Positions 30,334 through 35,120 of a stretch of 64,000 bases of DNA are shown one piece after another. The notes beneath the pieces were generated by a model. The model was not told where the DNA came from and searched no databases. It saw nothing but the letters and a program-made list of their open reading frames with translations. The position numbers and the translations under genes were made by a program. Source of the DNA: Robiginitomaculum sp. (GTDB lineage: Bacteria; Pseudomonadota; Alphaproteobacteria; Caulobacterales; Maricaulaceae); the NCBI GenBank assembly GCA_021776525.1, contig JAJFFT010000007.1, positions 1 to 64,000 on the forward strand. The letters are read 5' to 3'. How positions within the stretch are numbered: position 1 is the stretch's first letter; each line of letters opens with the position of its first letter.

Positions 30334-30732
30334 TTAGTCGTCGTGGTGTCCGTCGTCCAAGCCGTCCATATAGGCGATGACCGCCTGACGGTCGGCTTCT
30401 TTTTTGAGGCCGGCAAAGGACATTTTGGTTTTGGCGACAACATCGCGTGGCTTGGTGAGGTACGCATCCAATGTGGCGGCATCCCAGGTGACGCCCGTGG
30501 CACCATATTCAATCATGGACGCGCTATATTTATAACCGTCCAAAGTGCCCGGTGTGCGGCCAACGACGCCATAAAGGCTGGGGCCAACTTTCTTTTTACC
30601 GGCTTCGGTTGAATGGCAAGCCTTGCATTTTTTAAAGACAGCCTCGCCAGCTTCGTTATCGGCCACAGCGGCACCCGCAGTAAAGCTGAGCGCCAACGCA
30701 CTGCCGATAAGCATCATTGTAGATTTATGCAT
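30334..30732 (-). CDS. Class I cytochrome c (c2-like)
   Basis: A 132-residue periplasmic monohaem cytochrome: signal peptide (to about AAVA, residue 24), haem-binding CKACH (about residue 36), GPSLYGVVGR, and the axial Met in KTKMSFAG (about 104). A His/Asp tail (DDGHHDD) ends the protein. It resembles mitochondrial-type cytochrome c/c2, which carries electrons between bc1 and oxidases. It is convergent with murA and downstream of, but separated by a terminator from, the repeat cytochrome gene. Confidence 0.92.
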   Translation of the reverse strand: MHKSTMMLIGSALALSFTAGAAVADNEAGEAVFKKCKACHSTEAGKKKVGPSLYGVVGRTPGTLDGYKYSASMIEYGATGVTWDAATLDAYLTKPRDVVAKTKMSFAGLKKEADRQAVIAYMDGLDDGHHDD

Positions 30733-30873: not shown

Positions 30874-30897
30874 AAAACGCCCGCCAAAGGGCGGGCG
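30874..30897 (-). terminator. Rho-independent terminator of the repeat cytochrome gene
   Basis: On the minus strand, CGCCCGCC-CTTT-GGCGGGCG gives a perfect 8-bp GC stem followed by TTTT, about 35 bases past the stop codon of the repeat-containing cytochrome. It indicates that this gene ends here and does not read into the c2-like cytochrome. Confidence 0.85.
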
Positions 30898-30930
30898 CAA
30901 AGGCTGATATGATCATATGGTCCGTGCAAA

Positions 30931-31731
30931 TTACTTTGCAGCATACTCTTTTTGCAGCACTTCGACATACGTGGTCAAAGCGGCCAATTCTTCAGAGTCC
31001 CAGGCCAGTGGTTTGGCTTCCATGGGTTGCTGCATGCAAATCTGGACCATGGATTCTGCGGTGACTTTCTTTTGGCGATACAGGTCTTTGCCCATAGCAA
31101 CGTAATGGCTGTATGGGTTTTTGAAGGTATCGTTATAGCCCTCTAGATCTGCATGGCAGCTATTGCAGCTCAGGCCATTGGTCGACAATGAGGCATCGTC
31201 ATAAAGCTCTTTGCCACGTGCGGCCAGATGCGTGCGATCACCCTTATATTTTTTGGACAACCAAGAGCGTTTAACGTCTTTGGGATTGCCCTCGGCCTCA
31301 CCTTCAGCTTCACCTTCACCTTCAGCTTCGCCCTTGGCGTGCTCGGCTTCACCTTCAGCTTCACCTTCAGCTTCGCCCTTGGCGTGCTCGGCTTCGCCTT
31401 CAGCTTCGCCCTTGGCATGTTCGGCTTCGCCCTTGGCATGATGTTCAGCTTCGCCTTTGGCGTGATGTTCGGCTTCGCCTTTGGCATGTTCAGCTTCGCC
31501 CTTGGCGTGATGTTCGGCTTCGCCCTTGGCATGTTCAGCTTCGCCTTTGGCGTGATGTTCAGCTTCGCCCTTGGCGTGTTCGGCTTCGCCAGCGGCTTGT
31601 TCATAAGCCGAAGTGGTTGCATTTGCAGCTTGGCTAAGGCCAACACTGGCGACCATGAGCGGCGTCGAGTACAGAAGACCTCGCGCTAGATTTTTGAGCA
31701 AAGTCTGTCTTTGATCGTGACGGTCCTGCAT
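30931..31731 (-). CDS. Exported c-type cytochrome with AKGEAEH(H) repeat region
   Basis: A 266-residue precursor. There is a signal sequence with a basic start (about residues 1-38), then about 100 residues of Glu/Ala/His/Lys/Gly repeats: ten AKGEAE units, most ending in H or HH, the later ones with GEAE insertions. A C-terminal domain (about 146-266) has a haem site CNSCH and the segment ICMQQPMEAKPLAWDSEEL followed by AALTTYV. That last pattern recalls SoxA/TsdA-type cytochromes. The start at 31731 has AGGGGAAG upstream. It is divergent from a TTL-like ligase gene, making the Glu-rich repeat a candidate substrate. The repeat could also bind metals through His. Confidence 0.85.
   Translation of the reverse strand: MQDRHDQRQTLLKNLARGLLYSTPLMVASVGLSQAANATTSAYEQAAGEAEHAKGEAEHHAKGEAEHAKGEAEHHAKGEAEHAKGEAEHHAKGEAEHHAKGEAEHAKGEAEGEAEHAKGEAEGEAEGEAEHAKGEAEGEGEAEGEAEGNPKDVKRSWLSKKYKGDRTHLAARGKELYDDASLSTNGLSCNSCHADLEGYNDTFKNPYSHYVAMGKDLYRQKKVTAESMVQICMQQPMEAKPLAWDSEELAALTTYVEVLQKEYAAK
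31291..31590. repeat. In-frame coding repeat (GAAGCCGAACACGCCAAGGGC-like units)
   Basis: About 300 bases of imperfect 15-24 base units, all keeping the frame of the cytochrome gene and encoding AKGEAEH, AKGEAEHH and GEAE variants. Third positions differ between copies (for example GCC/GCT, AAG/AAA, GGC/GGT), so the array is not a recent perfect duplication. Confidence 0.9.
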
Positions 31732-31762
31732 GGTCTTCCCCTTGGTATATGATAAGGTCCAA

Positions 31763-31777
31763 GGCGTAAAATACGCC
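31763..31777. promoter_or_regulatory. Palindrome GGCGTA-AAA-TACGCC upstream of the repeat cytochrome
   Basis: A perfect 6-bp inverted repeat with a 3-base spacer, 32 bases before the cytochrome ATG in the 229-base divergent region. The position fits an operator or a 5' UTR hairpin. Confidence 0.4.
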
Positions 31778-31907
31778 AAGTCTTCAAATGCTATGGCGCA
31801 CCAGCTGATTGATCAACGCACAACCTATCTCTTTTGGTAACGTTTTCGAGAGGTGCAGGTATTTTTCCATAAAATGCCGGTTTCTGGTTTTTGGTGCGCT
31901 TGACATT

Positions 31908-31929
31908 ATGGGGCGATGCCATGCCCCAT
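31908..31929. promoter_or_regulatory. Inverted repeat ATGGGGC-N8-GCCCCAT upstream of the TTL-like gene
   Basis: A perfect 7-bp inverted repeat starting two bases after a TTGACA (31900-31905) and ending 31 bases before the ligase ATG. The placement between a possible -35 and the start suggests an operator, but no good -10 is visible at the right distance. Confidence 0.4.
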
Positions 31930-31960
31930 CCGGTCACGGGAATATGGACAAGGGTGAATG

Positions 31961-34360
31961 ATGACCAGCACGGAAAAACAACGGCGTTCATACTGGCTGG
32001 CCGGTAATCGCGAGCCGGGGCAGGACGTGTTTTTTGTCGAGGCGCTGGACCCCGCCCTCTGGACGCCAGGCAATGCCGATAACTGGGACACATGCTGGTA
32101 TACCGGCATGCCCAATGCCGATGTTTTTGAATACCTGGATGAAACCAGAACCATCAACCATATCCCGGGTAATAACGGGCTGACGATCAAGGATTTTCTC
32201 TACGAGACTTTGCGAGCCGCCCGCGAGCGCCAGGGCAGTGCGCAAAACGTTGCCCGGATGGGGTGTTTCCCGCGGGTTTATGCCATGCCCGATGATTATC
32301 ACGAACTACAAGCCTGCGCCGCACAAAACCCAGATAAAAAGTGGATCTTAAAGCCCAAGAACTCATCGCGTGGGCGCGGCATCGAAGTGGTGCAGGACAT
32401 TGCCACCATCCCGCTCGAAAAAAAGTGGATGGTTCAGGAATATATTGACAATCCGCATGTGATGAACGATCGCAAATATGTGCTCAGGCTTTATGTGCTG
32501 GTGACGTCGGTCGAGCCTTTGCGGTTTTATCTGCACAAAGAAGGCTTCGCCAAGCTGGCCTCGGAACCTTACAATATCGAAGATCCGGATAACCCCTTTG
32601 CGCATCTGACCAATCCGGACATCAATGCCACCAATACCGATGCCGATGCGCCAGTGGTGTTTGTTGGCCTGTCGGACTATCGCGCCTGGTTGCGGGACGA
32701 AGGCCATGATGACGAGGTCTTGTTCGCCAAAATCCATGACTTGGTCACGCTGAGCGTGATGGCGGTACGTGAACGCATGCGCAAACGGCTTTTGGCACAA
32801 AAGGCCCCGGCCAATGGTTGTTACGAATTGCTGGGGGTGGATTGTCTGGTCGATGAGGACCTGAAACCCTGGATACTGGAATGTAACCTCAGCCCGTCGC
32901 TGGCGGTTTGTGCCGCCCCCGAAGATGGTGGGGAGGTCGAAACCGAGATCAAACGCACCATGGTCGCGGATATGGTCTCGCTTTTGGGCCTCAATGAGCC
33001 AGTGCAGGACCGTTCAAGCTTGAGCAAGGAAGAGCGCATCATTGACGATGCCAAAGGCGAGATGGCCCGCGCCGGCGGGTTTCAATTATTGTTTCCGGCA
33101 CCCGAAACGGCCGAGGACTACTTAAGCTTTTTTCCGGTGCCGCGCTATGCCGATCTGGTCAGTGCCCGCGCCATAACAGGTCATGAGCTGAAGCCGATAT
33201 GCCTTGTGCCCAACCAGACCACAGAAATTGTTTCGAATGACGAACTGGCGCTATATTCCGCGGTCAATGGCACGCTTTTTACGCCCAATCCTGTGTCTGG
33301 ATGGATCTGGCTGAAAGTGGTCGATGGGGCAGATCCCGAAGACATTGCCAGCGAGCTGATGGCCTCGCACGAGGCGGCCCACGGTGCGCCAAATGCCGAC
33401 GAACAATGGATGATCCGCGAGAACGTTTGGGATGCATTGTCTAACTGGGCTCATATTGGCCTGTTGCGCCGCGCCGCAAAGGGCCAGCCCCTTGGACCAC
33501 CCAAGACCAATGACTTACAGGTCAATACAGCGCCCGATGGGCTTTTGATTGGTAATCGCGCCGTGTCGGTTGATTATGGCTGCCCCGCTGTGGCGGATCG
33601 TCTTGCCGCCTTGTTTGCGCCTTTAAAAACTGGCAACAGCCCTGATCTTTCCATTGCAGTGCAACAGGCCCCGGCGGGTTATGCCATGGCCGTTGGGCCG
33701 CGTCTGGTGGCCACGGGCTTGGGGCTGGACCAGACAGCGCCGATGGTGGCGCGGGCGCTTTTCGAGCAGGCCCCGGCATCGCCGCACGATTTGGCCATAG
33801 CCGGTGCGCTGGTCCCCATCAGCCCAGATGAGGCTGTGCTGATTGCCGCCGGGCGGGAGCACCAATGGGACGATGCCTTGGCGGTGACGCTTGGCGCACG
33901 GCTCAACACGGGCTGGGCCGGCGGGGCCATACTGAACATGGAACAGGATCAACAAGTGCGGCCCATTGGCTTGCCGGTGCGTCTGGATGAGGGGGATTGC
34001 GATGCCATTGCCGCGGTGCTTGGCACGGCGCTGTCTACGCATCGCCAAACCTGGCCAACGGGCGGGCAAGGGCGATATTTACCTGCTGCATCCCATCAGG
34101 CCGGGCAAAGTTTTTCTCTGCGCGCTGTGGTTATACCCGAACGTCGCAAAGACAGCGATGCTGGCTTGAAAGCGGTTAGTGTGCACCGGGGGCTTGAGGC
34201 GCTTCTTGTTTCGGCTGTTGGTGCGCAGGGGCGCCGTCCGGACGGGGCGCAAGTGCGCTCGTTGAGTGAATGGCTGGCACCGTGCGGGCTGTATACGCTC
34301 GGATTTGCCGCACCCCAACAAGGTGTCGACATGCTCGTCAAAACACTGGACATCGTATAG
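31961..34360 (+). CDS. TTL-like ATP-grasp ligase fused to PqqD-like and degenerate HPr-kinase-like domains
   Basis: A 799-residue fusion. Residues about 45-345 form a tubulin-tyrosine-ligase-like ATP-grasp domain: WILKPKNSSRGRGIEVV, MVQEYIDNP, KYVLRLYVLVTSVEPLRFYL, FAHLTNPDIN and GVDCLVDEDLKPWILECNLS, with the metal-binding Glu and Asn in the last. About 405-505 resembles a PqqD-type peptide-recognition domain (TLFTPNPVSGWIWLKVVDGA, then DPEDIASEL). About 515-795 resembles the HPr-kinase-like domains found with PqqD, but the P-loop position reads AAGREHQWDDALA and looks dead. No signal peptide, so cytoplasmic. TTL enzymes add amino acids (Tyr, Glu or Gly) to Glu-rich tails. Its divergent neighbour encodes a Glu-rich repeat protein. 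The TTL call is strong; the other two domains are moderate. Confidence 0.8.
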   Translation: MTSTEKQRRSYWLAGNREPGQDVFFVEALDPALWTPGNADNWDTCWYTGMPNADVFEYLDETRTINHIPGNNGLTIKDFLYETLRAARERQGSAQNVARMGCFPRVYAMPDDYHELQACAAQNPDKKWILKPKNSSRGRGIEVVQDIATIPLEKKWMVQEYIDNPHVMNDRKYVLRLYVLVTSVEPLRFYLHKEGFAKLASEPYNIEDPDNPFAHLTNPDINATNTDADAPVVFVGLSDYRAWLRDEGHDDEVLFAKIHDLVTLSVMAVRERMRKRLLAQKAPANGCYELLGVDCLVDEDLKPWILECNLSPSLAVCAAPEDGGEVETEIKRTMVADMVSLLGLNEPVQDRSSLSKEERIIDDAKGEMARAGGFQLLFPAPETAEDYLSFFPVPRYADLVSARAITGHELKPICLVPNQTTEIVSNDELALYSAVNGTLFTPNPVSGWIWLKVVDGADPEDIASELMASHEAAHGAPNADEQWMIRENVWDALSNWAHIGLLRRAAKGQPLGPPKTNDLQVNTAPDGLLIGNRAVSVDYGCPAVADRLAALFAPLKTGNSPDLSIAVQQAPAGYAMAVGPRLVATGLGLDQTAPMVARALFEQAPASPHDLAIAGALVPISPDEAVLIAAGREHQWDDALAVTLGARLNTGWAGGAILNMEQDQQVRPIGLPVRLDEGDCDAIAAVLGTALSTHRQTWPTGGQGRYLPAASHQAGQSFSLRAVVIPERRKDSDAGLKAVSVHRGLEALLVSAVGAQGRRPDGAQVRSLSEWLAPCGLYTLGFAAPQQGVDMLVKTLDIV

Positions 34361-34388: not shown

Positions 34389-35120
34389 ATGGACGAGCAA
34401 GATTACAAAGCCTACCCGGTTTGGGATTGGCCGGTTCGAATATTTCACTGGGTCAACTTTGTCTGCGTCATCGGGTTAATCGCCATTGGTACGGTGATTT
34501 TTTATGCCAAGTCATTGGGGCTGGATACGGATGGCAAAATCCTGATTAAAACCGTCCATGTTCTGGTCGGCTATGTGTTTGTCGTAAATCTGGGCCTGCG
34601 TTTGCTGTGGGCGTTTATGGGTAATCGCTTTGCCCGCTGGGGCAGTTTTCTGCCGCTGGGAAGCAACTATGCCGAACGGCTTAAATCTTATATTGCTGCC
34701 GAAAAATCGGGCCAGCCGCAGTATTATCTTGGCCATAACCCCAAAGGGCGTTTGGCGGTTACCGTGCTTTTTCTGGTTCTGAGCACGATGGCCGTGACCG
34801 GTCTGGTGCTGGCCGGGACAGATATATATTTCCCGCCCTTTGGCGGTGCCATACGGGAATGGGTGGCGGCCAATGGGGTCAATCCGGCGGACATCGCCCC
34901 TTATGTTAAAGACAATGTCGACGCCGAAGCCTTCAAGGAAATGCGGGCCTTTCGCAAACCCTTTATCACCATACATTATTGGATATTTTTTGTCGTGCTC
35001 GGCGTGATTGCGGTGCACGTCGGCGCGGTGGTGTATATGGAAATCAAGACCGGCGGCGGCATTATTTCTGCCATGTTTAGTGGCAAAAAAGTCTTCCCGC
35101 GCGCGCCTGAGGATCAATGA
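34389..35120 (+). CDS. Cytochrome b561-family membrane protein
   Basis: A 243-residue b-type cytochrome with four membrane helices and candidate haem-ligand histidines in VRIFHWVNF, IKTVHVLVGY, ITIHYWIFF and IAVHVGAVV. The pattern is that of b561/Ni-Fe hydrogenase cytochrome b subunits, which move quinol electrons to a periplasmic cytochrome. It starts 28 bases after the TTL-like gene with a strong AAGGAG site, so both are on one transcript. The natural partner would be the nearby c-type cytochrome. Confidence 0.85.
   Translation: MDEQDYKAYPVWDWPVRIFHWVNFVCVIGLIAIGTVIFYAKSLGLDTDGKILIKTVHVLVGYVFVVNLGLRLLWAFMGNRFARWGSFLPLGSNYAERLKSYIAAEKSGQPQYYLGHNPKGRLAVTVLFLVLSTMAVTGLVLAGTDIYFPPFGGAIREWVAANGVNPADIAPYVKDNVDAEAFKEMRAFRKPFITIHYWIFFVVLGVIAVHVGAVVYMEIKTGGGIISAMFSGKKVFPRAPEDQ

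Follow-up and report, generated by a model that had tools for sequence, protein, structure and literature searches.

The stretch of DNA analysed here (the window) comprises 64,000 nucleotides of contig JAJFFT010000007.1 from the alphaproteobacterium Robiginitomaculum sp. (assembly GCA_021776525.1). It carries two divergent genes, one encoding a fusion of a tubulin-tyrosine-ligase (TTL) domain, a RiPP (ribosomally synthesized and post-translationally modified peptide) recognition element (RRE) and an HprK-like domain, and the other an export-type cytochrome c with a glutamate-rich tract, which is the candidate substrate of the fusion enzyme. The features of this gene pair are the following:

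31961..34360, plus strand: TTL-RRE-HprK-like fusion protein, 799 amino acids (800 from the alternative ATG at 31958)
31976..33133, plus strand: TTL domain, residues 6-391
33200..33460, plus strand: PqqD-type RRE, residues about 414-500, assigned from secondary structure, the Foldseek match to TbiB1 and Pfam PqqD in homologues
33512..34357, plus strand: HprK/PEPCK-fold domain without a P-loop, residues 518-799
31732..31957, no strand: intergenic region that separates the divergently oriented genes of substrate and enzyme, taken from the gene layout; presumed site of both promoters
30931..31731, minus strand: candidate substrate, an export-type SoxA/TsdA-like cytochrome c with a Glu-rich repeat tract, 266 amino acids
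31618..31716, minus strand: leader of the substrate (DQRQTLLKNLARGLLYSTPLMVA...), with a YxxPx[LM] core and an invariant proline
31258..31617, minus strand: Glu-rich tract of 120 residues, 34 of which are Glu, with GEAEHAK-type repeats; proposed modification site
31153..31167, minus strand: haem-binding CNSCH of the candidate substrate

The enzyme gene is open from the ATG at 31958 or 31961, and its stop codon ends at 34360. A preliminary description of this gene had assigned the N-terminal half of its product to the TTL family from four motifs, all of which are found in the translation in the order claimed. The assignment is borne out by Pfam TTL, which matches residues 63-316 at 200 bits (cut-off 20.1; E 6.4e-59); the next ATP-grasp family reaches 24 bits, below its own cut-off, and the best NCBIfam match, a RimK-related one, only 13.5 bits. 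All 25 homologues in the alignment set match Pfam TTL, and homology to eukaryotic TTL-like (TTLL) enzymes spans about 370 residues. The predicted structure contains the TTLL fold, with TTLL6 nearest, and the glutamylases TTLL6, TTLL7 and TTLL11 are the nearest relatives of this half by sequence and structure.

The active site offers a more specific clue. K172, R176, D294, E307 and N309 are kept in 25/25 homologues and K131 in 24 (one gap); V174 stands where the FDLR motif of TTLL6 has Asp, again in all 25. Arg137 occupies the position of TTLL6 Q180 in 23 of the 24 ungapped homologues, the other having Lys, and Leu310 is present in 25/25. The Gln and His of native TTLL6 are Arg and Ile in the engineered protein of structure 6vzq, to be compared with Arg137 and Leu310 in the fusion family; a 2020 study reportedly made engineered TTLL6 a branch initiator. 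Q180 has been described as the primary determinant of the selectivity of TTLL6 as an elongase (PMC12366701). Because Arg replaces this selectivity Gln, the fusion enzyme, judged by its active-site residues, looks like a branch initiator. This initiase-like active site, the Glu-rich cytochrome and the shared leader were absent from the preliminary description and are first raised here.

The same description had placed a PqqD-like domain and an HprK-like domain without a P-loop in the C-terminal half, and both placements hold; neither outcome that it had named as refuting, a far better score of the N-terminal region to another ATP-grasp family or predicted structures unlike both PqqD and HprK, was observed. 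At residues 415-498 the predicted structure runs beta-beta-beta then alpha-alpha-alpha, and the top Foldseek match of this half is the lasso RRE TbiB1 (5v1v; E 5.4e-4, target TM-score 0.80-0.83). Foldseek also returned the PqqD structure 5sxy (TM-score 0.65), and PqqD was absent from the 50 VIA-align matches listed, which were filled by PEPCK. Pfam PqqD is weak in the window protein (E 0.014; 16.1 bits, under the cut-off of 23.4), matches 21/25 homologues at E at most 0.1 (best 1.1e-8) and exceeds the cut-off in the homologue at locus L072 (24.2 bits). Comparison of the predicted structure further revealed a PEPCK/HprK fold, and the C-terminal half aligns by profile over 363 columns with four stand-alone PqqD+HprK_rel_A proteins (probability 99.7, E 3e-26). 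These homologous HPr-rel-A proteins (TIGR04352) have no TTL domain and keep the P-loop (4/4), whereas it is missing from the equivalent, freely varying position in 27/27 fusion homologues; because of this absence, we do not class the domain of the fusion as a kinase. It probably serves as a scaffold whose origin, like that of the RRE, lies in RiPP enzymes that phosphorylate peptides. The stand-alone proteins come from loci L021-L027, which gave partial PqqD/HprK-type matches (E about 4e-7) and were used as relatives only, four being aligned; L021, L022, L023 and L025, all in other genomes of the class, encode such proteins with an intact P-loop. A nucleotidyltransferase-like open reading frame (ORF) adjoins two of their genes (L022/L027 and L023); HPr-rel-A systems have a nucleotidyltransferase-like gene beside the HprK_rel_A gene.

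With the P-loop lost in 27/27 homologues and Asp replaced by V174 in 25/25, the TTL half could be as dead catalytically as the HprK half, the fusion then binding leaders as a chaperone of acidic proteins or a guide for their export. We consider this highly improbable: the remaining active-site positions that were checked are conserved in 24-25 of 25 homologues, unlike the freely varying P-loop position, and a chaperone would not require the near-exclusive use of Glu over Asp in the partner proteins described below.

Homologues of the fusion occur in 14/299 genomes of the window's order (15 loci), with one further locus (L002) from named genomes; in 9/385 genomes in the class search (three full-length, two of those new); in 12/62 genomes of family f5 (two new); and in 10/18 genomes of the genus (seven new). 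Across the phylum, the Pfam TTL model matched 48/398 genomes, three at E<1e-49, two of them new (G813 and G1039), and the order of G1039 added matches in 7/341 genomes, four full-length and two new (G1333 and G1321). The total is 31 distinct loci (that of G680 being split over two frames) plus a contig-edge fragment in G681, from families of Alphaproteobacteria and from the order of G1039. A match in G982 (E 8.5e-13) lies in a different protein of 875 amino acids and was dropped, and the remaining PF03133 matches in the phylum (E 5e-9 to 1e-3, most of them covering 30-60 positions) were left out of the family.

At all 31 loci, the enzyme has an adjacent gene for an export-type protein that contains a low-complexity, Glu-rich tract (at L052 and L053 the partner became apparent only once longer stretches were read). 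At 14 alphaproteobacterial loci, the partner is a SoxA/TsdA-like cytochrome encoded divergently to the enzyme, its tract lying between the signal and the haem domain; the window cytochrome matches Pfam SoxA-TsdA_cyt-c at E 4.7e-10, and a TTG start at 31779 is likewise open. At 13 loci, the partner is a protein of about 104-153 amino acids (from the first start codon) with a C-terminal tract, its gene convergent with that of the enzyme, and four loci in the order of G1039 (L071, L072 with L113, L173 and L174) carry both types. A lipobox-like LLAAC, LLAGC or LVAGC was seen by eye in 11 of the 18 small partners tabulated. A pairing that is about cytochromes as such is rejected, as 18 of the 36 partners tabulated lack a haem motif. 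Two genomes, G179 (L012, L017) and G681 (L038, L042), have two enzyme-partner pairs with different partner types, the second enzyme of G681 being truncated by the contig end, which hints at parallel modules. Within the genus, the 10 of 18 genomes that have the enzyme are exactly those that have the cytochrome domain (searched without the tract), a co-occurrence that may reflect few events because the genes adjoin and some of the other genus genomes are 73-84 % complete. In family f5, the cytochrome domain matches 5/62 genomes, three weakly, and is strong only in the two with the enzyme beside the cytochrome.

The composition of the tracts, which hold 9-34 Glu each, points to the side chain as the target. 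The 18 cytochrome tracts contain 418 Glu versus 1 Asp, compared with 178:137 in the haem parts (Fisher 2e-58, a value inflated by repeats and kinship), and in the 18 small partners Glu:Asp is 402:63 in the tract versus 37:29 elsewhere; the tract was defined by Glu content, a definition that does not by itself exclude Asp. A requirement for Glu itself, beyond charge alone, would be in keeping with catalysis on the Glu side chain, and the internal position of the tract in cytochromes would allow modification at side chains only, in agreement with branch initiation. TTL-family members add tyrosine, glycine or glutamate, and the choice made by the fusion is not readable from its sequence. The same enzyme and partners could thus be imagined with another amino acid, such as glycine (glycylation by TTLL8 and TTLL10 is described in PMC12340829), or with the C-terminus, not the Glu side chains, as the point of addition. 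We regard this as unlikely, as the nearest sequences and structures are the glutamylases named above, the C-termini of the 36 partners are unconserved and the cytochrome tract is not C-terminal.

The tract is not a chance feature. A Glu-richness threshold of E50 at least 0.24, below which the 82-residue partners of L072 and L174 fall (E50 0.20), was reached by only one of 199 window ORFs of at least 80 amino acids, the partner itself, and around the enzyme at 14 loci by 16 of 221 picked genes, namely 12 partners and four others, one of them RpoD. At the DNA level, a pattern coding for EAEGEA was found in 15/26 genomes and in 0/8 enzyme-less genomes of the genus; it lay inside the partner gene in only 13 of the 18 enzyme-positive genomes searched, was found nowhere in G691, G203 and G134 and only elsewhere in G014 and G692, and its reversed control also matched in 5 genomes. 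Two off-locus genes, L134 3770-4132 (minus strand, G014) and L131 1461-1802 (minus strand, G242), encode small proteins that are Glu-rich and look exported; both lie far from the enzyme in enzyme-positive genomes and lack the leader, and they are either coincidence or secondary substrates. The off-locus match L103, like L134, is in a Glu-rich protein without a leader, and those at L106, L130 and L133 are ordinary-looking or ambiguous. The tract of the window cytochrome is encoded by imperfect tandem DNA repeats (31298-31631, periods 12-90 bases), and its length therefore probably shifts fast between strains.

Cytochrome and small partners have in common a leader with an invariant proline in a motif that is often YxxPxL. 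This proline is the sole invariant column of a 21-row leader alignment; in the window cytochrome this leader probably doubles as the Sec signal. A profile of 10 cytochrome leaders, run against 2,672 ORFs, placed 24 partners at the top: its own 10, another 6 cytochromes, and 8 small partners (of 16) that had not entered the model. The first non-partner followed at rank 25 (E 1.5); three small partners lay in the noise and five more were not among the matches listed. In the held-out genome G1333, both partners were the top matches (E 7.5e-15 and 8e-9), and in G1321, also held out, they were the top two of the locus but weak (E 0.05 and 0.27). A profile of all 21 rows gave 25 matches at E at most 3.4e-11 in 29 whole genomes, all of them partners and covering all 21 enzyme-positive genomes; after a gap the next match had E 0.005, and the best in the 8 enzyme-less genomes 0.035. 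As most positives are in or near this model, the informative part is the lack of further matches, no other strong leader-bearing gene being found in the 29 genomes. YxxPx[LVIFAM] occurs in 12/21 leader rows versus 7/422 control ORFs with hydrophobic N-termini, and a relaxed form in 20/21 versus 87/422, the leader rows being related to each other and the control ORFs mechanical. Lasso RREs recognise [Y/W]xxPx[L/V/I/F/A], and YxxP is essential in LPP, a system of an RRE and an HprK-like kinase (PMC13381572). For DUF2063-type RREs, both variation from YxxP to LxxP and precursors with Sec signals have been reported (PMC12710340). The arrangement is RiPP-like in that a precursor with a conserved leader and variable core adjoins the enzyme at 31/31 loci.

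Could the tract be a mere acidic tether of the cytochrome or lipoprotein, with the fusion modifying something else? Acidic tracts do exist in periplasmic proteins without such an enzyme (L103/L134 and L131, without the leader), and an acidic stretch in Paracoccus cytochrome c1 is said to be a tether, on which a literature search found nothing. However, two unrelated protein types beside the enzyme have only leader and tract in common, the remaining neighbourhood varies between lineages and is common to related genomes only, and the leader is confined to partners as described above; we consider the tether the least probable of the alternatives. The adjacent Glu-rich export-type protein is very probably the target of the enzyme. 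The earlier suggestion that the substrate is a protein other than tubulin is supported, and a specific candidate for it lies next door. Overall, we assign a probability of roughly 0.7 to a leader-guided protein-modification system made up of the TTL-RRE-HprK-like fusion and its Glu-rich exported partner.

Further genes accompany the pair in the window or at related loci:

30334..30732, minus strand: small cytochrome c, c-550-like, near the substrate gene in 7/15 neighbourhoods compared
34389..35120, plus strand: cytochrome b561, downstream of the enzyme, with homologues near the enzyme in 3/15 neighbourhoods
L072 3777-4379, L174 7881-8483, L071 3322-3909 and L173 4518-5036, all minus strand: DinB_2-type genes

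Either cytochrome is a possible redox partner. The DinB_2-type gene directly follows the small Glu-rich partner at 4/4 loci in the order of G1039, where its product is a possible third component; tblastn of the remaining loci gave no match to it. A promoter scan of 31732..31957 found 2 candidates versus 3.8 expected, no better than shuffles. Just past the substrate gene, a GC-rich hairpin with a T run (30877-30898, minus strand) fits a terminator.

We propose that the cytochrome or small lipoprotein is synthesised carrying an N-terminal leader which doubles as export signal, and that the RRE of the fusion would bind this leader around a [Y/L/V]xxPx[L/M/I/A] core. The TTL domain, using ATP, would then activate Glu side-chain carboxylates of the tract and ligate an amino acid to them as an isopeptide branch, glutamate being the most likely choice; we infer this step from the fold, the active site and the composition of the substrate. 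The decorated protein would next be exported, with lipoprotein-type substrates also being lipidated. The predicted product is a cytochrome or lipoprotein bearing a brush that is very acidic and perhaps branched and that could, as guesses, bind cations or dock redox partners.

The proposed system shares parts with several known ones. Like TTLL6, TTLL7 and TTLL11, the fusion has a homologous ATP-grasp domain, the main active-site residues and a Glu-rich disordered target, but it has V174 and an Arg at the Q180 position, the RRE-HprK half in place of microtubule-binding elements, and an exported bacterial target instead of tubulin. With LPP and paeninodin-type lasso systems it shares a lasso-type RRE, the leader motif and an HprK-related partner domain (PMC13381572); those systems have a discrete RRE and a live phosphorylating kinase, whereas the fusion has lost the P-loop and gained a TTL ligase, and Glu-tract cytochromes and lipoproteins take the role of precursors. 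Leader-guided modification of proteins with Sec or lipoprotein signals is also known from bufferins and lipidated DAG-RiPPs, long substrates included (PMC12452194, PMC12636315), but their enzymes are multinuclear iron oxidases (MNIO), acting mostly on Cys, with no RRE-TTL fusion. RimK polyglutamylation (PMC11957791) and graspetide ligases (PMC8939145) resemble the proposed reaction in bacterial ATP-grasp ligation to protein carboxylates and in ATP-grasp ligation to peptide carboxylates, respectively; both belong to other ATP-grasp families, RimK acting on a ribosomal protein and graspetide ligases forming internal lactams or lactones. Among the papers listed by searches of the openly licensed literature, we recognised no description of such a TTL-RRE-HprK system with a Glu-rich partner. 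At slightly better than even odds, the family represents a new bacterial class of leader-guided modification of proteins, in which a lasso-type RRE and a retired peptide kinase steer a TTLL-type, branch-initiating glutamate ligase so that exported cytochromes c and lipoproteins acquire glutamyl branches on their Glu tracts.

TTLL-type glutamylation is known from eukaryotes, where it is directed largely at tubulin. If our reading is true, these bacteria would possess a counterpart of the tubulin code, and TTLL chemistry, here with a targeting signal of its own and a genetically paired substrate, would be placed outside the cytoskeleton. Leader-guided protein modification would gain a further enzyme class, and Glu-rich tails could be decorated with a compact set of two genes by adding a short leader to them. 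The reading also gives a testable reason why tracts of some periplasmic cytochromes are rich in Glu and nearly free of Asp.
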